Part shown: positions 14,371 to 58,570 of the stretch, piece by piece
Numbering within the stretch: the stretch's first letter is position 1
Layout of the letters: each line of letters starts with the position of its first letter
Assembly: GCA_034670405.1 (NCBI GenBank)
Contig: JAXDDX010000119.1
Coordinates: 1,121,501 to 1,185,500 of the forward strand
Direction of reading: 5' to 3'
Length of the DNA: 64,000 bases
Origin: Hoplostethus atlanticus
Taxonomy: Eukaryota > Chordata > Actinopteri > Trachichthyiformes > Trachichthyidae
Notes under the pieces: model-generated
What the model saw: the letters and a program-made list of their open reading frames with translations, nothing else
The model's database searches: none
What the model was told of the DNA's origin: nothing
Made by a program: the position numbers and the translations under genes

Positions 14371-15249
14371 GCTCTAACTGCGTCACATTTTATTTATTTC
14401 AATCTTATTTATTTAATTTTGTTTTTCTAGACCTTTTTGTCCAGTTTTGTCATGTCCATTTCAGTCACTTTGTTGTCCCATGGTCACAGTGTCAATATTA
14501 GCAGCAACCCAACTATAAAAGTTGTCAAACATCTTTATGGGGCGAGGGAGCTGGAAAAACTATGATTTGACAACAGTTGGGAACGATTCAATTTATTATT
14601 GCTTGTAAACTGTAGTAGGTCATATCAGCATTCCAATTTCCAAACACTTGGGATTGACAAAGGCACAGGAGGCACAGTTTCTCTATTATTGAGATTATTT
14701 CTCATCTCAGTCGTGTTAAATAAATTGCTAATGCTCAACATTTTATCGCCTTTCTTTCACAAATTAACACAGTTTGGTAGATTTGTGAAGCCAGGAAGGA
14801 CATAACAAGTATCCCAATTTAGAGTTTTCCCTCCAACCTTCGTCCCTCTGACCTCCTCTGATTTTGATGTTGAAGGATCCCTGAAGGTTTATGGGAGTGA
14901 AATAAGACTTTTGTCGCAGATAATTAAAGCAGCCAGCCAGTAACCTTCTGAAAAACAATAGGGGAGAAAAGCAGTTTCACACCAAGACTGCTCTGTTGAC
15001 ATTTAAACTGTTTGTGAAACTGTCTAGCTTTTTCTGTAGCCCTATAAAGTTCATGGTTAATGTTGAAATTGTGTACAATTCAGTGGACCTCTTTTTCAGA
15101 ATCTGTAGGAATGTGGTTTCCAGATGAACTGCTGGAGCATAAATTGAAGTTGATGATGCAATGCTCTGAAATAAAATACCACTATCAGCTCAAAAGGATT
15201 CCAACAAAGAAATATGCCGATATCAATCAAAAAGCAATAAACAATCATG

Positions 15250-16165
15250 ATTGAACGTTTGTGAGCCCCTTGTGCAGTTATAGGAATTTAGACTTTTTAT
15301 TAAGCACTCCTTATTTAATCAAAATGAGCCTTTCTTAACTGAAATAAGGGATCTATATTTACCAATTTTGTGTGTTTATTGTGTCTATGTAGTAAAATGA
15401 AAATAGTTTAAGGGAAGCAAAAATAATTGAACCTCCTTTCTAAATTAAATAGATAAGTAGAATCAGGTGGTCAATAACTGGGTATGATGTTAACCAATCA
15501 AAGATCAGATCTTTGGGGAGAGGTTTGTGTGGTGCTACTGTAACTACAGGTGAGAAACCTGGTCAGTTTGTATAGATGTTACCTATACATTCTATCCCTA
15601 CAGTCAAGCATGGTGGGAGTGTCATGGTCTGGGGCTGTTTTTCTTCCTCTGGATGACTCAACATCATTAAGGAAACCATGAACTCTGAGGGAGAATTCAT
15701 AAACAGGACGTCAGGCCATCAGTCTGAGAGCTGAAGCTGAGCTGAAAGTGGCTGTTCAACAAGACCATGATCCTAAATCTATCCTAAATCTAAGAACGGA
15801 TGAGAAAGAAGAAGTTTAGTGTTTTGGATTGGCCAAGTCAAAGCCCTGACCTAAATCTGATGTTGTGTCATGACCTGAAGCGTCTGTTCATATGAGACCT
15901 CGAACCTCACTGAGTTGGTTGAGCTCTGTCAGGAGGAGTGGGAGAAAATCCCTCCAGGAAGATGAAGAGACTGATCAATGGTATAGGAGATGTTTACTTA
16001 CACAGGGATGTCTGAGTTATTGTAAAATAAACATTTATTTGTGCATTCTCTTATTGTGGGATATCTTCATTAAGATTAGAAGTTTTTAAGGTAATTTCTC
16101 TATAGTATATGAAATACTGACCACATCTTGTAGGGTTCACAAAGTTTGACTGTATCTATAAAATC
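15250..16165 (+). mobile_element. Tc1/mariner-like transposon, decayed
   Basis: At 15603-15653 the plus strand reads VKHGGSVMVWGCFSSSG, the hallmark catalytic-core block of Tc1-like transposases. Further on are the remnants AVQQD-type (GCSTRP), FWIGQVKALT (from the usual WP.QSPDLNPIE region) and ELVELCQEEWEKIPP (near the C-terminus). The 3' part is recognisable while the 5' half is missing or unrecognisable. Several stops and frame shifts show it is inactive. The ends near 15252 (ACGTTTGTGAGCCCCTTG) and 16155 (CTTGTAGGGTTCACAAAG) are roughly inverted to each other and probably mark the terminal repeats. A second copy of the same family lies at 19725-20060. Confidence 0.85.
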
Positions 16166-16242
16166 TGTCCATGAAGTCTGAATATGTGACAAAAATACTG
16201 TCTCATCCCAATATCGCGCTCACTTCGCCAGTAGATCGTATT

Positions 16243-16270
16243 GATGTTTTTCTCTCTCTCTCTCTCTCTC
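16243..16270 (+). repeat. (TC)n microsatellite
   Basis: A run of TC units just after the Tc1-like copy. Confidence 0.9.
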
Positions 16271-16479
16271 CAAACGAGCATGAGAGACGGCTTTTTGAAG
16301 AAGTGTGGCTTCTGTGAAATCAAACACAGACAGGTGGACAACAATGTCGAAGATATCCCGTGTTTAAGAAAATAAAAGCTATGCGCCCGGCAGACTCTAG
16401 GAGGAGAAAAGGAATCCCTCTCAAGTGACAAGTGTTTGTGTTTACAGCAAAATGTGTTTACAACTGCTCAACTGCTCAA

Positions 16480-16790
16480 GTTCATCACGCAGACATAAAA
16501 GCAAACCAGTTTGTTTCCTGGCGCAGTCAATGAACTGCAGCCCTCCTCCGAACCTCCAATTGAAATTCAGCACTAATAAAAGGATGTTTCACTAATTTCG
16601 ATAAGGCCTGCATTATTTATTTGTAATTAGGCAGCGGTTATCATCCCATCTGATCCCACATTATTATAGCTCCACCGATGTGCTTCTGCCCAGAGCTAGA
16701 ATCATTTACTAATGGCCCCAGTTTGCTTGCTCCCTTTTCAATAATAATAAACTCGTAAACAAACACAACGCCTGTAAAATGCTTTCTGGA
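16480..16790. promoter_or_regulatory. Candidate conserved non-coding block
   Basis: Unique, non-repetitive, AT-rich intronic sequence with clustered homeodomain-like cores (AATTGAAATT, CACTAATAAAAGG, TGTAATTAGG) and GATAAGG (GATA-like). It has no open frame worth noting. The call rests on texture only; conservation was not tested. Confidence 0.3.
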
Positions 16791-18580
16791 ACTTTCCGTG
16801 TTTTCCATTTATCGGAACCTGCACCATCAAATATTCATAGGTTGCTATGGTAGCAAAGCATGAGGAAGTATCAAGTTTCTCATGCCGGAGAAAGGCGTGA
16901 GGACAGAGATGTCAGAGTCTCCTTGAGTACTGAACCACACAGCGCAAACCTGGGCTGGGGTAAAATGACCTGTGCTGGAAATCAGAAAAAAACGCAATTG
17001 ACTAATATGTAGCAGGCCGACCTTCCTGCTGCTTTTGGACAAGAAGGTGCTACTGATTCAACTTTACCACCGGATCAAAGCGAGATATACTCAGTTAAAA
17101 GGGCTACGTCCCTTGTTAGAAGGAAGGTGATGTGCTGAGCTCTGAGAGCAGAGCTTTTTCAGAGCTGTGATGAAGGTGAGCAGAAGAGAAAAGGTGCACA
17201 ACGCCGTGACAAAGCCGGCCTGCAGTGGTTTTTCTGCCTCGCACCCAAAATTAGAAATTGCCAGACTGAGAACTATATTAGACTGTAGAATATAGGGTGC
17301 ACTTTCCAACACACACACACTGTACCACTCCACCGTCTCAGTCCCTGCCAAAATGAAAAAAAAGGTGCTGTGCATCCAGAATTTAATTTTAAATAACTAT
17401 GGCAGAATGAAGAAAAAATAATCAGCCTTATACATTATGTCACTATAATTAAAGATTGGTGGAAAGGAATTTTTGATGAGCAAGGCATGATCTTCATCTC
17501 TCTAAGAGTGTGAGGCTAACAGAGACGTAAAGGCATTAAAAGCGTCCGGCTGGCCTAATGATTTTAGCTGCAGGGGAAATATTTGTAGTATACCCATCAT
17601 TGAGCCTTAGTTAATTTGCCAAGAATGCCTCATAATCTGCGAGGCTTGCACAGGCCAGGGCAGGAATTACAACGCCGCTTTTATAGAAACAGAAGAAGAA
17701 ACAGAAATATCCATCATCAGTCTTGTTCATCATGTGACTTCCATGGACACTATACTGGAAATCTGTGTGGTGAGATCGCACACATCATGTAGCAGCCCAA
17801 AGGTACGGTACCCCTCATTTTAGTTGCCGGAATAAATTCACCATTAAGTGACAACTAGTGCTGAGACACTACAGTACATCACCCGGCTTCATCCTCGATG
17901 ATGAAAGTTTCTCCGTTGCAGGTGGTGCGTGTCAAACGCCAAGACATGCAGGGAGACCAGTAAATCCAGTGAAGTGTTTACTTTTGATCCTCACATTTCT
18001 GTCTCAATAGGCGCTTACATGTCCACGCTTGATCCACTGTGTCACTTCATCAGATTGCTTTCTCCTCACAAAAGCAGTTGACTAATCAAAACGCCGGCCC
18101 GGCCCCCCGGAGAGGAAGCTGGGGGGGGCTTCAGAATATGAAGACCATCAGTAAATCAAAAGCGATTTCAGAGAATGATCACAGATGGTGCGACTGAAAA
18201 ACGCGCCTACAAATTCCGTGTCCCCAAACGCTTCGCACATTTCCCAGGCTGCCGTCTGCATTTTTCCAAAATAGCGCCGTAGCCCATTATGAATGCAAAT
18301 AGAAAATATGGCTTGAGACTGGTTGAGGGGGTTTATGCGCTAACTGACAGGTATAGTGGTGGCTATGTAACCATCCCGACAACTGTGACTGGCACGCGAA
18401 ATCCAGATGATCAATCCCAGCAGCGCAGTCGGGTACTGGAATATCTTTACCTTGTCTTTCACAGAGTTGTTGCTTTATTCATGGGAAAATGCACCAGAAG
18501 GGCTGATTTCAATAAAAGGATGGAGGGTGAAATAAAATCTGCATCACACACACATGAGTGTGCATGAAAGTCATACTCTT

Positions 18581-18582
<2 letters not shown>

Positions 18583-18617
<35 letters not shown>
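18583..18617 (+). repeat. (AC)n microsatellite 15 bp from TRAPPC9 exon D
   Basis: The CA run, followed by CAGACAGACAGACTC, ends about 15 bp before exon D (18633). It is therefore (GU)n-rich just inside the donor of the following intron in the TRAPPC9 transcript. Confidence 0.97.
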
Positions 18618-18621
<4 letters not shown>

Positions 18622-18632
18622 GACAGACTCAC

Positions 18633-18723
18633 CCCACTGCAGAGGAGCCAGCTGTAGGTGCTCCAGAACCAGCTGGTTGAGGACTCCCTCCACACTGGCA
18701 TCCCCATGGCGCCGCAGGGAAGG
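18633..18723 (-). CDS. trappc9: TRAPPC9 internal exon D, after the AT-AC (U12) acceptor
   Basis: This 91-nt exon encodes [20 protein letters not shown] then [10 protein letters not shown] (30 codons) and ends with one base before a strong U2 donor (TGGG|GTGAGT). It corresponds to the vertebrate segment [28 protein letters not shown], with the variable positions at K/R and at residues 6-8. The trailing G would begin the Asp codon of the expected DVLVDG continuation. Upstream, the intron ends CCTTAACCACTCCCAC with no AG at the border. A branch-site motif and terminal AC fit U12 splicing from exon C. The expected next exon (DVLVDG onwards, about 150 residues to the C-terminus) was not recognised in 1-18632. 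Confidence 0.96.
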
Positions 18724-18741
18724 GTGGGAGTGGTTAAGGAC
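18724..18741 (-). other. trappc9: U12 branch site and terminal AC acceptor
   Basis: Minus-strand sequence GTCCTTAACCACTCCCAC ends the intron. TCCTTAAC (18740-18733) matches eight of nine positions of the U12 branch consensus TTCCTTAAC. The likely branch adenosine (18734) lies 10 nt from the intron end, in the short window U12 introns require. The intron ends in AC (18725-18724), pairing with the AT at its start. Confidence 0.94.
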
Positions 18742-19724
18742 TACAGCATAGAGAAGCTTGGTGCATTAAACTCATGGATTAACCCACATGTGCATACTGG
18801 ACTGTGAACAGCAGAACAAATCATTTCATAAAACAGTGACAAAGTGATACAGAAGTTCAGCACAAATTTCCAAAAGTCACAAAAAATTAGAGAGCATCAG
18901 TTGTGTTAGCCTCGTGACTCTGGAGGGAAAAAGCAGAAGTGGGGGTACTGGCTCTGCAAAAAGAAAGAGAGCCTCCAGGCTTACTGTCAGACAGGAACCC
19001 AGACCTAACCGAGTGTACTGAATGTTACAGCTACCATGGTTACTATGATTATCAGGTCAAACATCACTGGACACTGGATCCGACTGCCTTTTCCTGGAAC
19101 CTTTTCCAACCCCCCTGCCGCCCCCCCCCCATCCCACTTTCCAATTTTGTCTGTTAGAAAGCAGTAAGGTGTCAGCGTCTGTCGACGCAGCAGTAATATG
19201 AACAGCACGCGTGATCATCGAATTGTCCCGACAGTGGCAGCACGCTCACTTCTATAACGGGGTCTTCGCTGTAAGTTTCATCACATTTCCAAGTTTCTTT
19301 TATCTAAATTTAAAAAAAAACTCTTTCTAAATCCCTCAGCATATAATGTAATTTAAATCCTGAAAACCAATATAGCCTTACCTATTCGTAGACTAATCGG
19401 ATGACATTTACTGATCCACTAATGTGGGTAATTATCATTAAGATTATGTAATCATTATTTCCAATCGTATTGGGGAATGAACAACTTATCTCAGTTTTAA
19501 AACCCACCGGCTGAAAGGCTGTCATCACTGAAAACTGCCTCTGAAATGAACCCTGGTCCATCACAGATACTGTAAATGGGCCAATAGTCATATAGTGTGA
19601 TTTGTAGAGAGCAGATATTGATGATTTACTGTTTCTAGATATATCACAGGGATGACTTCAGTAATGTCTGTTTTGAATGAATCAGATTTCCACCCTTGGA
19701 TAGTCTCACTGTTAACGTCATGCT

Positions 19725-20060
19725 TGAAAGGTTGTGAACCCTACAAGGTGTGGTCACAGCCACAGCATCTCAGTTGGATTTACATCACGACTTCCAAACA
19801 TCCAAAACACTAAACTTCTTCTTCTTGAGTAATTCTTTGGTAGATATTCTTCAATGTTTAGGATCATCATCTTGTTGAACAGCTACTTTCAGTGCAGCTT
19901 TAGCTCTCAGGGCTGACGGCCCTGGCGTTCTGTTCGTGATTTCTCTGGTTTCCCTCCGACTTCATGGTCTCAAGTCACTCATCCGACGACAGCTCATAGG
20001 AAACACATCTCTGCAGTCAGTGCCTCGCATCACAGTACGCAGTCTCTTAGCTCCTACTTA
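19725..20060 (-). mobile_element. Tc1/mariner-like transposon fragment, second copy
   Basis: Read on the minus strand this aligns with 15700-15900: GTAGCTGTTCAACAAGATG and AGAAGAAGTTTAGTGTTTTG occur in both, preceded by CATGAA.TC.GAGGGA. The end at 19728-19755 carries GTGAACCCTACAAG, the inverse of the 16130 end of the other copy. It is shorter and internally deleted; the catalytic GGSVMVWG block is not seen. It sits within the U12 intron. Confidence 0.75.
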
Positions 20061-20519
20061 TATTCACAGAACTACTAACACTCAGAGATAAAAGGACAAT
20101 ACTGACTTTGTGAAAGAGAGAGACCACCATGTCTTCACTGTCTGTAGTGTATATATATGTGTGGAGCTCCTGACATTAAACAAACATGGAGGCAAGCAAT
20201 AAGCCACCAGGTTAGTCGTAACAGCATTAGGTGGAGTGGCTTTCTAGCCAGCCACGACAGGCGTATATCACCGGGATGCACGTTAGAAGTCAGACACATA
20301 AAATAATAATTGTTAATAAAACATTGGCAAGCTCAAACCTTCCGCAGGTTACTTTCCACTGATCTGTCATAGATGGCATAACGTGAAAATACGAAGGCTG
20401 ATTACGCGGCTTGGTAAACGCAGTTTCACACCAAATCCAATGCCAATATAAGACATGAAGATTTGAAGATTTGAAGAATTATCAGTTCCTATAAAATCGT
20501 GCAAAGCTAAGTCAGCTTT

Positions 20520-20554
20520 AAATGTAATTTCGGCTTTATTTGACAGTTGGCAGT

Positions 20555-20602
<48 letters not shown>

Positions 20603-20710
20603 GGAGGAGAGAAGAGGAGGATGAAATTAGGTTAAGGTCTGAGGCCAGATTTGAACCTGTCGCTGGTATATGGTATGAGCCTTCGCCAACTGAGCCACCA
20701 GGACGACTCC
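20520..20710 (-). mobile_element. tRNA-derived SINE (fish type)
   Basis: The minus strand reads GTGGCTCAGTTGGCGAAGG (A box, 20686-20697) and then GGTTCAAATCT (B box, 20647-20657). A CT-rich body with an expanded (CT)n tract follows, then CTGTCAAATAAAGCC near 20530. A/B-box spacing and the CT-rich body followed by AATAAAG fit the common teleost tRNA-derived SINEs. Confidence 0.8.
20554..20600 (+). repeat. (AG)n microsatellite
   Basis: (AG)n with one AGAAG interruption. It lies within the CT-rich body of the minus-strand SINE and probably expanded from it. Confidence 0.9.
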
Positions 20711-21040
20711 AAACTTTTTTTTTGCACAATGATGATGTGAAATGTCATTTACAAGGCCCATATGCATCGACTGCATTGTGTTATGTACTCGTTTAGCTGT
20801 CAAGGGGCCATGGGGGGCATGTCGGTGTGACCTCACTGTACTGATCACACGGTAGGCCATGGGTGTTTGAACGCAGCATCAAAACTGGCTGTCACAGAGC
20901 AATTAGCGTAATAATATGTTATGATAAGGACAGCGCTGATCATTAATAGCTGACATTTGGAATAATGGGTGAAATGAGCGGTACCCGGAACACCTAAACC
21001 GGTGTCTATTAACCTTTGAAGGAGATTATGCATGCAGAGA

Positions 21041-21068
21041 GAGGGGGGGGGGGGGGGGGGGTTGGGGG

Positions 21069-21100
<32 letters not shown>
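21041..21100 (+). repeat. Poly-G plus (GA)n tract
   Basis: About 18-20 consecutive G, then TT, then eight G, then (GA)n to 21100. A purine-only block next to a potential G-quadruplex, inside the U12 intron. Confidence 0.95.
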
Positions 21101-21101
<1 letters not shown>

Positions 21102-21769
21102 GAAGATGAGTTTACAAACATGTCTCCTGTCACAGGCACTCAGATTTCCTCATAGGGCTCAGATGGAGGGGAGGACTGATGTAGGCAATGATTTGTAAGT
21201 GATACTGCCTCATCATGGCTCCTACGAGGCATATCATACTGGAGTACTGACTGAGTGCTACAGTCAGTACCACTAAGACCACTATATAGATGCAACTGAG
21301 TGCTACAGTGTACCAGACTATGTACACTGTCTCTGGTATACTCTGTACCAGACTATTGTAAAACTCACCATAGCTCTGATACATCCACTTGTCTTTTACT
21401 CAGTAATAATAACTTTGTCAATGCTGAACAATTCTCTGACTTGCTGTTACACCCCAAAACATCATTGCTATCACTTCATTTTTAAATTAAATTGATTTCT
21501 TGACCACGCAAACATACCCTTTTGATTTAGGAATCAAGTCTCTAACCCCATTAGTTACTGCTGAAAAAAAATGAATGGCGGTGATCACAGATCATCACCA
21601 AAATGTAATCAATTATTCCTTGACTGAGAACCTATCTGTCCACCAAATTTCATACAATTTCATTCATCAGTTTTTGAGATATCCTGCTGACTGACAGAAA
21701 AAACAACTAACAAGAGTTGGGTCCGATGGTAAACTTTGATTAATAGTAACTAATTGGTACTTGCTAGCA

Positions 21770-21950
21770 AGCTAAGTTAACTTATCAACGTAATGTTATG
21801 AAAGCCAATACCAAAGCAGCAAAGTAAGGTTTGCCTGTTCAGAATTTGCAGCTGCACACGACCACTATATAGATGCAATTGGAGCCTCTCGCACCGCACA
21901 CAATCGGTCAGAAAAGAGTGACCCATTAACCAAGATACTCGCAGTGTGAA
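21770..21950 (+). repeat. Dispersed repeat R2, copy 1
   Basis: Shares ATGAAAG.CAATACCAAAGCAG, TTTGCCTGTTCA, GATGCAATTGGAGCCTCTCG-like and GTGTGAAC with 53150-53310, same orientation. It abuts the LINE 3' end at about 21950. Confidence 0.7.
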
Positions 21951-22900
21951 CACATGGTGAGCTGGCAGGTGGTTCCAGAGCCTAGGGGCCCTGATGGAGA
22001 AAGCTAGATCACCCTTTTACCCCTTTCACACCGGAACAACCCTGGTTATTCCCGGGTCAGGTGTTGGTGTGAATGGGTCATCACGGGTTTAAATGCATAT
22101 TAGCCCTGGGTCCACGGTCCATGCTCCCTACCTGGGAATAATCTGGCTCAAATGCAGCTTGGCTGCAGTGTGAAGCCACTTCACAACGAGGACCGTTTCA
22201 ACAATAATGAACAAATAGAACGAATAATAAGAGAATTGGAAAGATTCCAAATCAGAGAGCTTCTGTCCATTTCGTGGGGAAGAAGAAATAAAGCAAATCA
22301 ATTTACCGGGATGGTAAAAGATTCAATTATCTACGGCGATATAACACAGTTAACTTGTTTGGCCCACCGCGGCAGTGACTTATACAGATATCTTGTCCGG
22401 TCTGAATGGTCGATGACCAGCAGTTTGGTGTGAATGGGTCCAACAAGGGAAAGACCTGTGTTCAATAACCCGTGTAAATCCCTTGTGTGTGAAAGTAGTA
22501 TTAGTCTTAACCCTAGATGAGCATCTCAGACTGAATCTCAGGCTTGTTAAGGGTTGAAAGCTCAGAGCATAATTAGGCGTTAGTCCAAAACGTGCCTTAA
22601 AGGTAATCAATACAATTTTAAAATGAATCCTAGATTGCACTATTGTAAAAGTAAAGTAAAACTAGATGGGGGTAACATGCTGTCTCTTCTTAGTTCCTGT
22701 CAGGAGTCTGGCTGAAGCATTTAGGACACTGTAATATAATCTGATATAATCTGCTGGCTAGCACAGCTGTACAGGGCATTGGAGTATTCAAGACATGACA
22801 GCAAGAAAGCATGGATGACAGTTTCCAGGTGATTAAAAGACAAAAAAATCCAAGAGTGTCTCGAGTTGCATCTATGACTTAGTCTGATTTCTTGCATTGT
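21940..22900 (-). mobile_element. LINE (L2/Rex1-like) ORF2 fragment, split by a DNA element
   Basis: On the minus strand the pieces appear in correct order: FLSFN-type HLETVIHAFLLSCLEYSNAL (about 22850-22760), IHFKIVLITFKARFGLTPNY (about 22630-22560), then DLAFSIRAPRLWNHLP (about 22015-21965). These are the usual L2/Rex1-type RT C-terminal blocks (HAFITSRLDYCNALY, IQFKILLLTFKAL.GL.P, GDRAFSVRAPRLWNSLP). The element contains stops and lacks its 5' part. Between the last two blocks lies a foreign 481-bp insertion, described separately. Confidence 0.8.
22020..22500. mobile_element. Non-autonomous PIF/Harbinger-like element inserted in a LINE
   Basis: The element begins CCCCTTTCACACCGG and ends GTGTGTGAAAGTAGTA, imperfect terminal inverted repeats centred on CTTTCACAC. 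It is flanked by TTA at 22017-22019 and 22501-22503. Removing it rejoins the LINE as GATCACCCTTTTAGTCTTA, the expected uninterrupted sequence. A TTA target duplication and CTTTCACAC-type ends fit PIF/Harbinger (ISL2EU-like) elements. Internally GGTGTGAATGGGTC occurs twice near the two ends. A 93-codon frame (22152-22433) inside is not recognised. Confidence 0.7.
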
Positions 22901-24387
22901 GCAGGTGGCTGGTTCTAGGGGCTTGGGACAAAACAAGCTTCACCTCCACACTAGATATTCAAAGATATTACATGAACTCAGCAATCCCCCCCCTCCCGTG
23001 GGGAAGCCATAACACACTCCCTCCTACTTGTATTCTCTTTGCCTCAGTGCCTTTATGGCGCCGTCTTTCTCTGACTGGATTATTTATAGATGAATCATCG
23101 CATCATCAAAAGGGAGAAACACCGTAGACAGCCCTTCAATCATGAATTAAGGTGCTATTTTGCTGAATGCCAAGTGTGTTGAGTGTGTCTGAGAGTGACA
23201 TGCGGTGTAATCAGATCTTCCTTTATTCTTCCATCTTTTTGTTGTTTCCTAATTTGTGAGCAACGTAGACATTAGAAGTGCTTGCTATGAAAAGGGCTAC
23301 TTGACCTGCAAGTTTGTCTGTGGTCTCAAGTCTCTACTTAGGTGTAATTGTGAGTGAGTGATATTTCAAAGAAAGGCAGAGCATCTCAACAAAGGATTTG
23401 TAGATACAAGGGTGTATCGGCTGGAGGCGATGCCGTATAATTTGAGAATAGTCAAGCCGATGCTCATAATAGTTTTATTTACCACGTTCTGAGGAGTCGG
23501 GGCCTCACAGATTTCCATTCCCCTCCTAACATATGCTCTAGAATGAACTCAATACAATGATCAAACAATTTCAGGCTGCGTCGTGCTACAGCATGTGAAG
23601 CACTGTCAGACTTACCACTGGGAACATTTGTAACGTTAATTTTCTTTCCACACTCCTGCCCACACTGCCACACTGCCAAATCGCTTGTAGATAAAACAAA
23701 TGCACATAATGATGGAAGCGTTTATGCATTAATAACATAAAAAAATATGAAGCTAAATAGCTCAGAGACTAGATTAATAATTAATTGCACACCTTCACCA
23801 ACAACTTGACAAGCAATTCTCAACAACAAAGTGTGCATTGGTAATTGCCACTTCATTACATAAGAGCTAGCATAGGGCACACTCTGCTGCTGCTGCTGAC
23901 TGGGAGACTTTTAATTTACATCAGAATTACATCTGTGTATAGCCCCATTCGGACGGGGGTAGTTTCTCTAGGGGAGGTCAGGTAATGTCATTTATTACAG
24001 TACAATCCAGTGAATCTTCCCTTCTACCCAAGTACTAATTCCAGCCACAAACACCTCAGTGAACTTACAGATGCATTGATAGTTTCATTCACTTCCAGAT
24101 AGACATCTCTATTGTGATGAATTGACATACTGATGAATTGACAAAAAGCACGCCATAATCTAAATTACACATGACCTGAGTCGCATGTACACGCGGGTAC
24201 GTCCGACAATTGCGCTGCTCCGTCTGCAAATTTGAAAGCAGTCTGGATCAATGAGTAGCCATGCAAATATTTTATTACCCACATTGCCCTGTAAAACCTA
24301 GCCACCGAGGTTCCAACCCAAATGACTTCAGCTACTCTCCTAGTCTTAAGAACAACAACGAACAATTGCATACATATGGACGTCATT

Positions 24388-24545
24388 GTGGCTCGGTTGG
24401 CTAAGACACATAACATGTGACATCCTGGATTCGAATCTGACCTAAGACCTTTGTCACATGTCTTGCCCCACTCTTTCTCCCGTTCTTCCACTTGGTCACT
24501 CTCTATTGTTCCTGTTGGCTAAAAGCAAAAATAACAAAATAAATC
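24388..24545 (+). mobile_element. tRNA-derived SINE (fish type), second copy
   Basis: GTGGCTCGGTTGGCTAAGA opens the element (A box) and GGATTCGAATC (24427-24437) is the B box. The body continues CATGTCTTGCCCCACTCTTT and ends in CTAAAAGCAAAAATAAC. Same family plan as the 20520-20710 copy but opposite orientation, moderately decayed. Confidence 0.8.
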
Positions 24546-24812
24546 TTACAAAATCCATTTTGAGCCCCAGAGGGACACAAACACTAACCCAGCATGCACC
24601 TATGTTAACTTGTGTTGCTTTATAGCAAGCTTGTATGTAAATGGAAAGATGGAGGTCATCACCCTGTGCATGAGCAGAAGACAGAGGACAGCACACTGAA
24701 AATGATGGGGTCAAAGGTGACCTTGGATGGACAACACAGCCTGTCCACAAACTAGGCGCTACTGGCAAATGATGAACTCATACGCAACTGTGTGGCACAA
24801 TTAACACACGCA

Positions 24813-24815
<3 letters not shown>

Positions 24816-24847
<32 letters not shown>
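24816..24847 (+). repeat. (AC)n microsatellite
   Basis: About 16 AC units within the U12 intron. Confidence 0.97.
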
Positions 24848-24848
<1 letters not shown>

Positions 24849-25155
24849 AACAACGCTTCATAGTGTCAGACCAGCGAGTAATTCGCCATACGCTTTCCCA
24901 TCTGTCACTGCAGTAAAACATGTTTCCTGTTAGCTGGAGGGCCTCCAGATGTGGGATCCAGATGCCCAGTTTCACTGATCTGACTGCTCTCAACAAACAA
25001 CAACACATTATGATGCCACATCCATTACATCTGAGTGACCACTTAAAACTATTGGCATTAACGACCTGTGATCGGTTCAGCAGAGACTAGACACGCTCAA
25101 ATATCAAAACTTTATCATCTCTATCTACTGGTGAGATGCTCAGCTCAGGCTGTGG

Positions 25156-25163
25156 AAGGATAT
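25156..25163 (-). other. trappc9: U12-type AT-AC 5' splice site (ATATCCTT)
   Basis: Read on the minus strand directly after exon C, the intron begins ATATCCTTCC. ATATCCTT is the full eight-base minor-spliceosome donor consensus recognised by U11 and U6atac. No competing GT donor exists between the last conserved codons and the in-frame stop. Confidence 0.95.
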
Positions 25164-25317
25164 GATGCTCCAGCAGATGCCCAGCTTGCTGTTGATCTGG
25201 CAGCCCTGGGCATGCTGTCGCTCCTCCTCCAGCTGCTTGGAGTTGGTGAAGCGAACGGTCTCCTGGTCCGGCTGCGGCAGGCTCTCAAAGTCAAACTTGT
25301 CTACCTGGATCGCCATT
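25164..25317 (-). CDS. trappc9: TRAPPC9 internal exon C, ending at an AT-AC (U12) donor
   Basis: This 154-nt exon is preceded by CTCATTTTTGCAG. It encodes (R)[18 protein letters not shown], then [17 protein letters not shown], then [12 protein letters not shown]. In vertebrate TRAPPC9 the same region reads [23 protein letters not shown] and SKLGICWRI followed by PSLKR. The Met is internal, not a start. After SKLGICWSI there is no GT donor before an in-frame stop (ISFHSLS then TGA). The sequence right after the ATC codon is ATATCCTT, the exact minor-class AT-AC donor consensus, and cutting there leaves phase 0. Exon D then supplies the expected PSLRR. I therefore end the exon at 25164. Intron retention would add seven codons and then a stop. 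Confidence 0.96.
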
Positions 25318-25504
25318 CTGCAAAAATGAGATGGGAGACTCAGTCACAGACACAAGGAGACAAGGAGTACAGCTACACAAAATCCACAAAATATTTTTTT
25401 AATATGTTTTTCTGGTAAAAAACCTTTCATGGTAAGTATAAATATAAGAACCTTTTTGCTTCCAAAGCTACTGGTCAAGGAAGAAATTCAATTAAATCAC
25501 CTTA

Positions 25505-25910
25505 AATTAACTAGAGTTCGACTGATATGAGTTGATATCTGATATTAAATATATTGCCAAAACTAGTATTCAAAAAGTAAAAAGTATTCTGGGTTTCCCC
25601 CATAATTTTATTCTTGCCAGGGTGGAAAAGCTGCTGAAACAGCATTTAGACCATGGGGCACTAAAAATCCTCACTGAAAAACAGGGTAATGACATACTTC
25701 TACCACTACTACTACTAGTACTACTACTAATCTATTCATGCATACTTGTGTAGAATCCAAACAAAATGTCACATTAGAATCAATTCAGGTTAAAGGCTTC
25801 CCATAGATAACTACTGTAATATTGATTAATTATACAATACATATGTAATCAAACCATCTGCATCATATCTATCATATTGGAGGTGGACGGCATTGGTCTA
25901 ATATTAACCA
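25505..25910 (+). repeat. Unclassified dispersed repeat family, copy 3
   Basis: GTTCGACTGATATGAG opens the copy, followed by GGGTTTCCCCCATAATTTT, CAGGGTGGAAAAGCTGCTG, AAACAGCATTTAGACCATG and a CTACTACTACTAGTACTAC stretch as in copy 1. It closes with GTGGACGGCATTGG. The 5' GACTGATAT motif recalls the CGATATATCGG-type repeats common in fish. Confidence 0.75.
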
Positions 25911-28234
25911 CACTGAATGTTGTGGAAAGATAAAACATTGAAAGCTAAATAAGGACGTTAGGATGTTATTTAATTTGTGATTTGTGATAAAAGCGTGATA
26001 AAACAATGTCAACTTATAGATGATTTACCTGGGAAGCAGTTTAAGGCAACAAAGGTGAAAACACTGCTCAACAACAAACACGATGCATTTAAACCTTTCT
26101 ATCTTGTGCCTCCAGAGAACATAGAGGTGAGTAATTGGGTCTGCGTTCCGTGAAAACATGGAAAGATTTATATCCACATCTCAATGAATAAAATGTTGCT
26201 GACTTTTGTACCTAATGTGATCCACGGTGCACGGTCGTGTGTGGTTTGGCAAGTGTCCATTGGACACTGATAAATTATTTATCTAGTTCGAACAAACACC
26301 CTCAGGCACCGAGCTTCCATCCTATGGTGCGGCTGTTTGTACTTTTAGTTTTTTGTTGGGTATTTATTAACAGGAGCCAGAGAGTTCATTGCCTGAGGTT
26401 ACATCAACAGTGTCACATCCAGGATTCAAAGTCTGGGGGTTACCGATGAGACCAGGCACTCGCTAATAAAAAGAACTCCGAACTCCGCCTCCAGCCCAGG
26501 CAACATTCATGCACCCCATTCAAATATGAAAGTATCAATTGGAAGCAGCATTTCATTAACAGCACAAGTCACTGTAGAGTTCAGAGTGAGAATTGTCAGT
26601 GGATGGAGATGGGCGGAGGGGGACGAGAAAGTAAGAGAAACAGGAAATAGCAGGGGCGTGAGTTTGACTGCTTCCAGGGTCCCTTGCGTGAAGCGATGTG
26701 GCGGCAACATCCCGGGCTCCTGTACCTCCACCAATTAGAAGACACCATAGTCGAAGGTCACGCCCAGCATGCACTAGCAACATCCTGCGCTGGGGGGCTG
26801 CAGCCATAGTAAATGGCCTTGTGACCGACTCTGGTGGCCACGCAACAGCTCTCTCCTGTCATGGAAGCCTTTAAGAAGTCTGGGGCCTGGACTGCTGTGG
26901 AGAATGGGGTTTGTGTGATCCCCTCAAACAGATCAGTCACACTGTCACGTGAGCTAAATCCTTGATGAAACCTCTATCCTTCTGCCTTTCAAACTCCCCC
27001 TGTCATTGGCCACGGTACTGTTATAGCTCTGTTTATCTGGTAGATTTAGCTTAATCCACTGCATATTGTCATTGTCGTGTGAAAACCTCGTAACTCTCAA
27101 TTGAAGTAAAAACACGGAAATCACCGAAATTGAAGGATTACACATTCCTCTATGCGTTGAGGAAATGATCCAACCCTTGGGTTTCGCAAAACCAATTGGA
27201 TAAACTGAAAAGCAAGGTGTTTTGTCTTAGTTCCTGAAAAGCTGACATTCTGGAGATAGGTTTTCATCTGACAACAGCAATATATTCTTCTACTTAATTC
27301 GCTAATGACACTGAGGGCTCAATTTTTTCACCAGCACACTGGCAATTTCATGAGGTTGCAATGACAATAACCTTTGCCCGCCGTCATTTTTGTAATTTGG
27401 TGGACAGACTTGCGCTGGGATGGGCAGGGTGGCACAACAGCTGGCGCAGTGCAATTTTGGTGTTCGCCTGTGCCTTCCACCTGTGGAGACCACATCTAAA
27501 GTGGAAGTCTGTGCACAGTGCTATTTTCATGGCTGACTGACTAACTAACTGAATGCAATCTTTTTAATATGTTCAAGGTGAACAAGGTGACAGGGGTTGC
27601 AATATCGCAATATCAATATAAGACATGGAGAAGAAACACTTGAAATTCTGTAGGATACTGATAAACCAGCCTGTCATATATATCTTTTTTTATTATCATC
27701 TTTCCTCTGATCATATTGAAATGGTTTCTTCTTTGTTGGGTCACAACCGACAGGAGATATGGAGCATGTGACGGTGAGACGCAGAGGGAGATATTTATAT
27801 GGTATTGCTTATACAGCCGGTGGATCTCTTATATTGTGTTGTCTGAGAAGGAGTGCTGTGCAGTGTGCTCCTTGTTCGCTGTAGGTGAAGGTACTCTGAT
27901 ATTTAAATAATTCACATATTTCCAACCTCTTCCCAAGTCAGTTTTACATAATCGGCCTGTGGGGGCCTATTTGAGGTGTCATAAACGCGATCGTGTCGAC
28001 TCTGCACCTCCTGGACAAGAGTATCAGATTTTTCTTGGGTGAAGCTTTCATGGTGGCCCCCGGTTGGGACTTGGTGTAGCCATCACGACATTGTCACATT
28101 GCTTTTAAATAGGGGAATGAAATGAGATGAATTGAAGCCAGCCCTCACCACACCAACTGATAATGTAATTCCACTTAATCCAACCTCTTTGACCACATTG
28201 TAATAAATGAGGTCAGGGCTGCAGTAGTTGAATA

Positions 28235-29000
28235 GGACTCCATTTGCTCTGGTCTTGGTCTTGAATAGGACTCCATTTACTCTGGTCTTGGTCTTGAATA
28301 GGACTCCATTTGCTCTGGTCTTGGTCTTGAATAGGACTCCATTTACTCTGGTCTTGGTCTTGAATAGGACTCCATTTACTCTGGTCTTGGTCTTGAATAG
28401 GACTCCATTTGCTCTGGTCTTGGTCTTGAATAGGACTCCATTTACTCTGGTCTTGGTCTTGAATAGGACTCCATTTACTCTGGTCTTGGTCTTGAATAGG
28501 ACTCCATTTGCTCTGGTCTTGGTCTTGAATAGGACTCCATTTACTCTGGTCTTGGTCAGGACTCCATTTACTCTGGTCTTGGTCTTGGTCAGGACTCCAT
28601 TTACTCTGGTCTTGGTTTTGAATAGGACTCCATTTACTCTGGTCTTGGTCTTGAATAGGACTCCATTTGCTCTGGTCTTGGTCTTGAATAGGACTCCATT
28701 TGCTCTGGTCTTGGTCTTGAATAGGACTCCATTTACTCTGGTCTTGGTCAGGACTCCATTTACTCTGGTCTTGGTCTTGGTCAGGACTCCATTTACTCTG
28801 GTCTTGGTTTTGAATAGGACTCCATTTACTCTGGTCTTGGTCTTGAATAGGACTCCATTTGCTCTGGTCTTGGTCAGGACTCCATTTACTCTGGTCTTGG
28901 TCTTGGTCAGGACTCCATTTACTCTGGTCTTGGTTTTGAATAGGACTCCATTTACTCTGGTCTTGGTCTTGACTAGGACTCCATCTGCTCTGGTTTTGGT
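28235..29000. repeat. 33-bp minisatellite, about 23 units, with 27-bp variants
   Basis: The unit is GACTCCATTTACTCTGGTCT followed by TGGTCTTGAATAG (33 bp). Variants swap ACT/GCT, end in GGTCAG instead of GAATAG, or lack six bases (27 bp). Because every unit is a multiple of three and free of stops, both strands stay open for 289 codons: minus reads (SPIQDQDQSKW)n, plus reads (RTPFTLVLVLN)n. From the minus-strand frame I count 20 eleven-residue and 3 nine-residue units. A degenerate tail runs to about 29090. This is a tandem repeat, not a supported gene. Confidence 0.95.
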
Positions 29001-32000
29001 CTTGACTTTGTCTCGACCCCCTTTGGACCTGGTCTTGACTCAAACTCAACTGGACCTGGTCTTGGAATTGACTTGGATTCAACTAAGATGGCCTTGACTA
29101 TAGCCCTGTGTGTGGTACTAAATAGCAGCGGAATTAATTCCTGCAGCAGAAAGTATTGATGGCTGTGTGGGAGACATTGCTTAAATTGCAAGGATACTAA
29201 TTTGTACTAAAGTGCTTGCAACATATATGGCAACATGTGAATAACCACATATAACACTCTCCTTCTCTACTGTATAGTAGGAATAGGCCTAATCCTGAAA
29301 GGTACTGAGTACTTCACAAAGAAGAAGAAATGGCCTGGTCCTCTTACTAGTGTCATGAAGAGCGATGGACTTCACTTCAAGTGTGAAACTGAGAGAGCCA
29401 GACACAATCAGAATCTGTTTCACACAGGGAGAACAGGGAAAGAAAGGTCTACGTTGCAGTCCACTTTATCCTGCCCTGAGTACTCCCTACTAAGAGAAAT
29501 GACACAATGTGACTTTGAGGTGGGCAGCTAACTGCAAATTACCTAGACATCCATCTCCACAGGAGGGCAACTTGTGAGAGGCTTCTACAAAAAGCAGAGC
29601 GAAAGGAGTGTCACTCCCCGTGCAGTTCATAAAAGGCTACCTTGATCGCTGCTTTGATGGGAACCACATTTACCAACACAAATGATTTCTCAGTGAACAT
29701 ATTCAAGAGGTGCAGCCCCATGTTGTGCAGTTATTTCTATTCCATTTGATAGGCAAGACACAGTGGATCCATGTATCGATTGGTGTGTGTTCATCTTCGA
29801 GTGCAGAGGCCGCGGTGGCTCCCTGAAGAGTCATTTTCTGATGCGCTCAGAGAAGGATGGAGTGTACACTGTCAGACAGGCCGGCAGAAATTACATAAAA
29901 ATCATTTCTAGGTAATCTGCTGTTTTACCTGTCTTCTATATTGTGAGTAATTAACAGGCAAGGCAAGAAATCTCTTAATGTGACTGTACAGAGTTGGAGT
30001 CCAGAGACACACATCAAAGAAAGTTGGAGGGAAAAAAGGCAATGCAATTATCATTTCGCAGCCTTCCACAACAAAGCAAAACACAAATGAAATAACAATT
30101 AAGACCTAAGAACAAAGACAAAGAGAAAGCTTCTGCTCTTGCTGCACCACACCACACATCCGCCTTTGAAGATTAGTGCCACTAGGCTTAAGTCACTGAC
30201 TGAAGTCCCATCTTCAAATGGATGCTGCTTTTCATCTTCAAAAGCGCACATTACACATTGAGCCTAAAAATACTTTGTTTCCACAATGCAAATGGCCCCT
30301 GAATGGGAAGACACTGTTGGCAAGGCTTGGGACGGGTTGTCTTTGGACAGGTAATTACATAAGACAAGGGTTTTGAAACCAATATGACCACATCCAAACT
30401 GGTTCTTCAATTGTGAATGGAATGCCTTCCAAGAGACAACAGCATTTAGTGGAGCGGAAGGAGTCTTTTACGTTTACTGGATTCACTGTAATAATGAATT
30501 CAAGTAAAGGAGGCTGTATGTTGAATTTCCTCATTAATAAAATGTTATATGATGCATTCTGATGCTTGCAAGAATTTCATTTGGTGGGATTTGAGAGCTC
30601 GCTGGCTTCATTTTCAGCTAACTCGTATAATGCTTTCTGACAGACATCAAAATCAGCTGGGAAGGGAAATCATAACATCTGCCAATAGAAAGCAGGCAAC
30701 AGAGACTAGGCTAGAATGGTATCTCTACAGTGCCGATATTATTACTATTATGGTCTTTCATTTGACGATGATATATTGTGCAAGCAAAGATTTTTTCATT
30801 GGAGTTGAACAAACAATTTAACAATTACTCTATCTACACGCAAGGTAAATAAAGAGGATGCAATGATACAGTGATGCGAGAACTGCTGACGTAATCCATA
30901 CAGCAATAGTTTTAGCTGCAATAAAAACCTCATACTCCCCTACAAAAAAAAGAGCTTTTCTCTATAGTAGGGAAGGGTTAACAGTGCCCAAGCTTTACCA
31001 TCACCACTACCACTGTCTTCTCCCATTGATTTGATTGTGGCGTTTTGCAGGGATGGGGGCCATATCAGGAGACTAATCTAGCCTATTACTAGGCTTTTAA
31101 TAACTGACTGTGAGCTGAGCTGGGGCCACCGTGGAGCATCTCCAGGTTTAATCCCCAGCCCATTTCACCTCCCCGCCTCCCTCCTGCGCTCCCTCCTGAT
31201 AACAGCCTGCTTGGCTTCTGTGTCCCTGGCTAAGGAGAGCAGGAAGGGGAGATGGGAGATGGGAGGGATGGATGGATGGATGGAGCAATTTCAGCCTAAT
31301 CTAGGTCTGTCCGATGGGAGAGCTGGGAATTCAATTCCTTCAATTCAGTTAGGATTCAAGTAACAAGTAATTAACAAATTCAACAAAGAAGTAGGCTAGA
31401 CCTACAAGCAAGAGATCGACAAGCATGCGTGTTCGTGTCCATGCATACAGATGGAGAGTTATATTAGCATAATGTAAACCTCCCTGAGAGAAACGAACCT
31501 AGAAAGACACTGCGTGGTTACACTTTCCAGCAATGTTTTTTGTTCAAGTTGTTGTGTCAGTTCAGTCATCCTCGATCCTAATTGAACAGCATATTGAGAA
31601 ATAGCAACAGAGTTCCAACTAAATGAAAACAACTACAAAACACTGGCCAGTTAAGCTCTACCTTGTGCAGAGAACGATATTTTGTATTTCTATGTTGCAA
31701 TAGAGGTGACTTTGAAATCTCGAATTCAGTCATTTTACATTTTCTTTCTTACAAAAATAATCTAAAAGCAAACATTAAATATCTTTTGTCTCATGTGTGA
31801 CCAAAAAAGCCTTTACAATGGATTTTGACACTGTTGCTAATTACTACTAGCAATGCAGTCAGCTGCAGTACTGAAGCCTGTTTAATGACAGTAATAATAT
31901 CACCCTGGGATGAACTGGTCACGGTGAAATGACCCCTCCCCAATTAAATGCTGTGTTGCCTCAGACCAAAAGTACATGATAACCACATCAGAGTGTATGG

Positions 32001-38415: not shown

Positions 38416-38526
38416 CTCTGGCACTCGCTGGCATGCAGCACCAGGTCCTGGTTGTTCTTGGCGCTGACGGTGAGCTCGTGCTCCGTGGAGTTGAAGATGT
38501 CCAACAGTAGATGACACTGGCGGGTG
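38416..38526 (-). CDS. trappc9: TRAPPC9 internal exon B
   Basis: This 111-nt exon has acceptor CTCTCCACAG and donor AG|GTGAGC. Together with the split codons on both sides it encodes [20 protein letters not shown] followed by [18 protein letters not shown]. The [16 protein letters not shown] and ECQR segments match vertebrate TRAPPC9, while the middle ([10 protein letters not shown]) is the more variable stretch between them. The final AG joins the first A of the next exon to make the Arg of [11 protein letters not shown]. It lies 6.7 kb downstream of exon A and 13.1 kb upstream of exon C. Nothing about it is unusual; both splice sites are ordinary U2-type. Confidence 0.96.
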
Positions 38527-45198: not shown

Positions 45199-45341
45199 CT
45201 GGTTGCGGGGAGGGTGCTGACCCGGGTGAAGAACACAGAGGGCTCCACGTCAACATGGACTCCCAGGGACAGCTCCCTGTAGTAGCCCTCCACCTTTCCC
45301 GCTCCGCCGGAGTACTTGAAGTTCAGCACGGCTTCCAAAGT
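45199..45341 (-). CDS. trappc9: TRAPPC9 internal exon A (most upstream in window)
   Basis: This 143-nt exon follows a pyrimidine-rich acceptor (CCTTTCGCAG) and ends before a GT donor (AG|GTAACG). It starts in phase 0 and encodes 47 codons plus two bases: [13 protein letters not shown] at the start, then [20 protein letters not shown] (45265 to 45206 region), and VSTLPAT at the end. The [20 protein letters not shown] block is nearly identical to the vertebrate TRAPPC9 segment I remember. This lies in the beta-rich C-terminal half of the protein (Trs120-type, Ig-like folds), which contributes to TRAPPII assembly. The last two bases (AG) combine with the C that opens the next exon to give Ser, restoring ATSTRQC. 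No frameshift or stop is seen. Confidence 0.96.
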
Positions 45342-56332: not shown

Positions 56333-58570
56333 ACTGAAGATAGGCAGCAGTGCTGCCAGGCATGCTGGTGCAGAGGACAGAGGTCGGTGTGTCAAAGACG
56401 CAGACGTATGTTGTCAACAAGCGCTCAAATACAGTCACACACATGTACATGTCACACATAATCTCACCTTCAGTATAGTCTTGCTGATTCATACCATATC
56501 ATCATATAGCAAACCACCAAGGAGGACAATTTTCATAGTAGATATATCATTTAATTGGGAGTATTGGTATTAAATGGTAAAATAGACTTAAATCAGACAA
56601 AAACTATTCTAAAATCAAGCCAGAAGTATTACTGCTTATATATATTTTGTGAGCTGACTCACGGGGAGGGGGGGGAGGTTGGTCAAGGACAGAGCATAAC
56701 CTCTTGGAGAACAAAGATGCCACAGCAGCAATTTTGTCCTGAATCTCTATCTGCAGGGGAGCATGATGCACATTTTGTTTCTGCGATACGGAAATCTAGT
56801 TTGTTTTGGTTTTCCCATGAAACGCTTCAAGAATCTCAAGCGCTGTGTAACTTAGGAGCTGGCGGCCAGGGCATCATTCACACCTTCACGGGATGCATCG
56901 TTTTGGCTCTGCCTATCTGACACCAATACAAGGAGTTTGTGATTACGCTAACTGCTCAGTTAGTTGCTTCTGAAGCACACACACACACTTACTAAACACA
57001 CAAGATTTCACTCACAGGAAGTTGAAGCTCACTTGACAACATAACACATCCTGCATACACCTGTTTGTTTTGACAGCCCCTAATAAGGAAACACCTTGGC
57101 AGCTATTTTGACTTCACTTCACTTTCACACGATGACTTTTCATCCTCCCCATACCAGAGCACCTCGATTCCTTGGAAAGCTCAGCCTCACCGTGCAACTC
57201 TTTCAGGTATGGTGACTTTCTTTTCCAACTTTCTCACATTTTAACATTTTGAAAGTATGACACATTACACAAAACCATTCAAATGGCACAGTTCATATTC
57301 TAGCACTCATCGGCGTATGGACAGGCCCTCTAAAGAAATTTCACTGAATTATAAAGCGCGGCAAGGCAAACAAGAGCGGCCCAACTCGCTCTCGCTCTCT
57401 TAATCTGCCTGTCTCGCCGAAGCTCATAAAAAGCTAGCCGGGAGCCCGGAGAAAGTCTGCATTTTACATGAACAGTGATTAGGAAGGAGAATACAAAGCT
57501 CCGTCAGGCCCGGGGTTAGGCTCTTAATGGTCCAGATCATTTCTGGCCAGCAGTAACAGATAGGAGGGCCTGCGGGGCCTAGCGCTGACGGAGCAGCGGC
57601 GAGTCATCAAGGACGTGATGAATGGCCGCTTCCTCTCCTTCTGTCTCTTGAATTAGCAGATCCGGGAAGCAGCAGCTCAGCGCTCAGTGCGAGGGGGACT
57701 CGCGGGGCCACTGCCAGGATGAAGTGGGCCCCCTCTCCACCTCCACGACAGGCTTCATGTGAATGCAGACAGCTTTCACTCTCACACAGAGGCCTGCGTG
57801 TGCGCCTGTGTGTTTGTGCACCGAACCAAAAAAAAAAAAAAAGAACTGCTACAAAGCCCAGAGCCGGCTCTCTTGCTCCCCACTGCGTTGCTGCCTGGCG
57901 GGCTGGCTGCTTTGCTGCTCTCAGAGGAAATCAAGTGCACCCATTCACAATTTGCTCAGGTTTTAGCTCATGAGTTATGTATACCTGGCAGCCGACGTGT
58001 GCGAGGAATATTCATCGCAATGCAAATAATCAAAAGGAACATATAAGACACACTGTAAAACCTCCTATTCGGATTTGCGGGAGTTTCGCTGAGGGCAAAC
58101 GTAATGGCGTGAAATATGCACTCTATTATCATGAGTGCAATGACAACCTGTTGAAAAACAATAAAGCACATAATTACACTCAGACTTATCAAACTGAGAC
58201 TTGGGGCATGGCTGCATCTCGGCAGAAGAGTGAGAGGGAAGGGGGATGGAAGCAGACGCAGCATCCACAGAGACAGCAGAGCGAGCAGAGCGTCTCTTCT
58301 GATGTCTGATATGTGATTCACACACACAGCAGGCAAAAACACAACCATCCACGAAGCCCGGTGGATTTCCATACCATAATCAGCGCTGCTTCGAAATGAC
58401 ACCCACCCCCCCCCCACCCCCCCCATCCCAGACCCCATCCATCTTCCCGTTTCTCCTCCTCACTCATGTTCCCTCCCTTCATCTCTCGCTGAGACACGAG
58501 GGATGTGCTTCTATGTTGCTGCAGCATAGCCTGAAGAAAACAGGCTACCGTATACTGATAAGATTGAAAA

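Follow-up and report, generated by a model that had tools for sequence, protein, structure and literature searches.

A 6440-nt intron with AT-AC termini interrupts the TRAPPC9 (NIBP) gene in phase 0 on the minus strand of the 64-kb stretch of Hoplostethus atlanticus DNA analysed here (the window). Judging from its splice motifs and their placement, it is almost certainly a conserved minor-class (U12-type) intron, and human intron 20 is its most likely counterpart. It lies between two of the four coding exons detected in the window, which we call A to D in the order of the gene.

45199..45341, minus strand: coding exon A of TRAPPC9, 143 nt long and equivalent to human exon 18; AG acceptor and GTAACG donor; set by tblastn and borders; its 5' border agrees with the human acceptor variant c.2557-2A>C
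38416..38526, minus strand: coding exon B of TRAPPC9, 111 nt long and equivalent to human exon 19; AG acceptor and GTGAGC donor, followed by a phase 2 intron; set by tblastn and borders; p.Arg937Ter in exon 19
25164..25317, minus strand: coding exon C of TRAPPC9, 154 nt long and equivalent to human exon 20; set by tblastn with the human query protein and border setting; p.Arg974Ter assigned to exon 20
25156..25163, minus strand: U12-type 5' splice site ATATCCTT, identical to the consensus
18724..25163, minus strand: AT-AC intron, 6440 nt, phase 0
18733..18740, minus strand: U12-type branch-site motif TCCTTAAC, identical to the consensus
18724..18725, minus strand: AC 3' splice site, directly 5' of exon D
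18633..18723, minus strand: coding exon D of TRAPPC9, 91 nt long and equivalent to human exon 21; encodes PSLRR...PLQW, with one base left over; GTGAGT donor; set by tblastn and borders; human donor variant c.3055+1G>A

Gene identity and exon structure

A human TRAPPC9 protein sequence served as the tblastn query. It located the four exons on the minus strand, and the following matches within the window had E values of 0.85 or worse. The exon borders were fixed before published variants were looked up. Joined together, exons A–D encode 166 residues without a stop codon, and 129 of these (78%) are identical to the human query protein in an ungapped alignment. The query itself was compared with Table 2 of PMC13299287 and agrees with it at 29 of 29 residues. 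These comparisons bear out the assignment to TRAPPC9 made in the preliminary description. The gene name rests on the comparison with the query protein, because curated families and structures gave no support. A Pfam search found no family in a joined piece of 81 residues and, in the joined 166 residues, two weak and unrelated matches under the cut-off but no TRAPPC9 family; NCBIfam gave no family for the joined piece. Searches of the PDB with the joined pieces did not return TRAPPC9; one gave no match, and the only hit of another, at E 0.99, was unrelated. In keeping with a vertebrate gene, no relatives turned up among prokaryote genome contigs (113 pattern matches, none confirmed), viral contigs (6 pattern matches, none confirmed) or plasmids (no match).

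The variant table in PMC13299287 places the human splice variants c.2557-2A>C and c.3055+1G>A at exons 18 and 21, and p.Arg937Ter and p.Arg974Ter in exons 19 and 20, respectively. Human exons 18–21 therefore extend from c.2557 to c.3055, a length of 499 nt. With the AT-AC junction, exons A–D have the same total length (143 + 111 + 154 + 91 = 499 nt); as in the human gene, the stretch opens at residue 853 and closes one base after W1018. The positions of p.Arg937Ter and p.Arg974Ter are consistent with exons B and C. PMC8683625 also assigns c.3103C>T (p.Arg1035Ter) of a longer TRAPPC9 isoform to exon 19; by arithmetic, a 98-residue offset makes this the same residue as p.Arg937Ter. The 499-nt match means that the AT-AC join neither drops nor adds a base, and a hidden exon or a moved border would break the agreement unless it were compensated elsewhere. 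As p.Arg974 lies in exon 20 and c.3055 ends exon 21, the human 20/21 border falls between them, and the phase 0 position of the present intron is most likely that of human intron 20. From the exon lengths in the window, the exact human border would be c.2964/c.2965, which is not among the entries of the PMC13299287 table.

Splice signals at the two ends of the intron

Exon C ends with the codons TGG AGC ATC, the final base being 25164, and the encoded segment SKLGICWSI finishes at a codon boundary. The first base of ATATCCTT is 25163, so that the motif directly abuts the exon on the minus strand. Read-through past exon C yields ISFHSLS and then an in-frame TGA, and the GT dinucleotide is absent from 25200 to 25130 on the minus strand, a span that includes this TGA. 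The earlier claims that no GT donor lies between the SKLGICW codons and the stop, and that ATATCCTT exactly follows the ATC codon, were thus upheld.

The consensus of U12-type introns is RTATCCTT at the 5' splice site and TCCTTRAC at the branch site. The donor ATATCCTT at 25163 matches the former and TCCTTAAC the latter, both with no mismatch. At the 3' end, the order on the minus strand is TCCTTAAC (18740–18733), CACTCCC, AC (18725–18724), and exon D, which opens with CCT TCC CTG CGG CGC, encoding PSLRR, from 18723. The preliminary description had placed AC directly before PSLRR and the intron ends 6.4 kb apart, and both agree with the measured coordinates; however, the gap that it gave between TCCTTAAC and AC (10 nt) is actually 7 nt. 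Immediately 5' of the branch motif, a G takes the place of the T of the nine-base consensus, and a motif search found TTCCTTAAC nowhere in the window. U12-type introns are expected to lack a distinct polypyrimidine tract ahead of the acceptor. Here, the 20 positions from −22 to −3 contain 14 pyrimidines, and the corresponding counts for the three remaining acceptors are 18, 14, and 15; these counts do not separate the AT-AC acceptor from the others, and one U2-type neighbour is equally rich. The second branch adenosine stands 10 nt before the final base of the intron. According to PMC3584512, introns of this class are defined by the 5' splice site together with the branch site, and the optimal branch distance is 11–13 nt; the distance of 10–11 nt here is at or slightly under this optimum.

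The borders, the phase, and the continuity of the reading frame can be read directly from the DNA. The earlier statement that donor, branch motif, acceptor, phase, and protein continuity all agree is sustained, and the exon sum equals that of human exons 18–21 in the published variant positions. From the motifs and published knowledge of the class, ATATCCTT would be expected to base-pair with U11 snRNA and TCCTTAAC with U12 snRNA; the minor (U11/U12, U4atac/U6atac) spliceosome would then excise AT...AC, joining CWSI to PSLRR in phase 0.

A second in-frame AC is present 6 nt upstream, at 18730–18731 on the minus strand, and an intron ending at 18730 would add Ser-His to the protein. Species-specific use of this alternative AC, giving a minor intron with two protein isoforms, is very improbable, because the intron would end only 4 nt past the second branch adenosine (18734).

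Intron class and alternative explanations

The donor and branch motifs are ordinary by themselves, and it is their exact placement at both exon edges that is unusual. Counting both strands of the 64 kb, ATATCCTT occurs once (2.08 expected), RTATCCTT three times (4.14 expected), TCCTTRAC four times (4.94 expected), and TCCTTRAC-N6-16-AC once (2.49 expected). The joint chance of a perfect donor and a perfect branch motif is approximately 1e-7 under a first-order Markov model with 30 donor and 11 branch positions allowed. Among 20,000 random draws on the minus strand, RTATCCTT was matched exactly in one, and TCCTTRAC, at a suitable distance, in 13. Within the gene, the other three donors examined (GTAACG, GTGAGC, and GTGAGT) have 4, 5, and 5 mismatches to RTATCCTT, and the other three acceptors examined end in AG, and the best fits to TCCTTRAC there have 3, 3, and 2 mismatches.

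The placement probability of approximately 1e-7 argues against the view that the AT-AC motifs arose by chance and that the major spliceosome uses a nearby GT-AG or GC-AG pair, which we regard as highly unlikely. GC dinucleotides do occur close to the end of exon C, for example at 25180 and 25168, and an AG lying 17 nt ahead of exon D would set the intron end at 18741. However, a GT-AG intron is opposed by the GT-free span described above, and the use of AG at 18741 with the exon C end would add 17 nt, by which the frame and the 499-nt match to the published human coordinates would be lost. The GC donors close to exon C and this AG were both discarded. Excision of an AT-AC intron by the major spliceosome, as in sodium-channel genes, is less probable still. 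PMC2831892 states that AT-AC termini are insufficient to set the intron class, and that G occupies +5 in the U2-type AT-AC introns of sodium-channel genes; the donor +5 base here is C, and a full U12 donor match and a U12 branch motif are both present. Equally remote is a decayed copy of TRAPPC9 in which the intron would never be spliced. Just four exons were detected in the window, and human TRAPPC9 has 23 exons according to PMC8683625; therefore, the remainder must be elsewhere or undetected. Against a pseudogene, each of the four detected exons has an open frame and usable borders, their phases match, and joined together they show 78% identity to the human query without a stop. A U12-type intron of TRAPPC9 remains the preferred reading.

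Comparison with known introns and other features of the window

PMC2831892, drawing on U12DB, reports a U12-type intron in Trappc9/Nibp that is CT-AC in mouse and rat, with orthologous introns that are AT-AC or GT-AG in other vertebrates. A minor-class intron of TRAPPC9 is already in print for vertebrates, and our call is correct and ordinary; the present intron is most likely the same known minor intron in one more species. The two have the host gene and the intron class in common, whereas the first base is A here and C in rodents. As the section concerned gives no intron number, their positional identity is a probable one. The AT-AC of this fish would fit a scheme in which the rodent CT-AC form arose later, from a minor intron of older origin. 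With the AT-AC subtype of U12-type introns in general, it shares the ATATCCTT donor, the TCCTTAAC branch motif, the AC acceptor, and a short branch distance; it differs in that this distance is at the short edge, in the G before the branch motif, and in its phase. Phase 0 is under-represented among U12 introns according to PMC7367187, and in this respect the evidence counts against the class. The portions of PMC8683625 and PMC10321293 on TRAPPC9 variants and zebrafish mutants do not mention this intron.

A gene finder limited to GT-AG introns would be expected to split or truncate TRAPPC9 past exon C. Retention of the intron would append seven codons and a stop.

Within the AT-AC intron there are 16 pairs of inverted repeats, chiefly facing long C and G runs. 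A C run and a G run at 19105–19141 and 21036–21072, approximately 1.9 kb apart, could pair in the transcript; they are probably simple-sequence repeats. Rfam gave nothing in the window at the gathering score, and two sub-threshold matches in 15000–27000, mir-297 at 18540–18618 and sR2 at 17123–17189, were taken as chance. No tRNA was found in the window by ARAGORN. A stop-to-stop frame of 163 residues with a hydrophobic stretch (57968–58459, minus strand) has only sub-threshold Pfam matches and is probably due to chance. The intron preceding exon C contains a 33-bp minisatellite at 28228–29005, with 24.1 copies and 91% matches. Because 33 is divisible by three, the repeat keeps long frames open on both strands, with three open reading frames within 28083–29097, and these could mislead an ORF finder.
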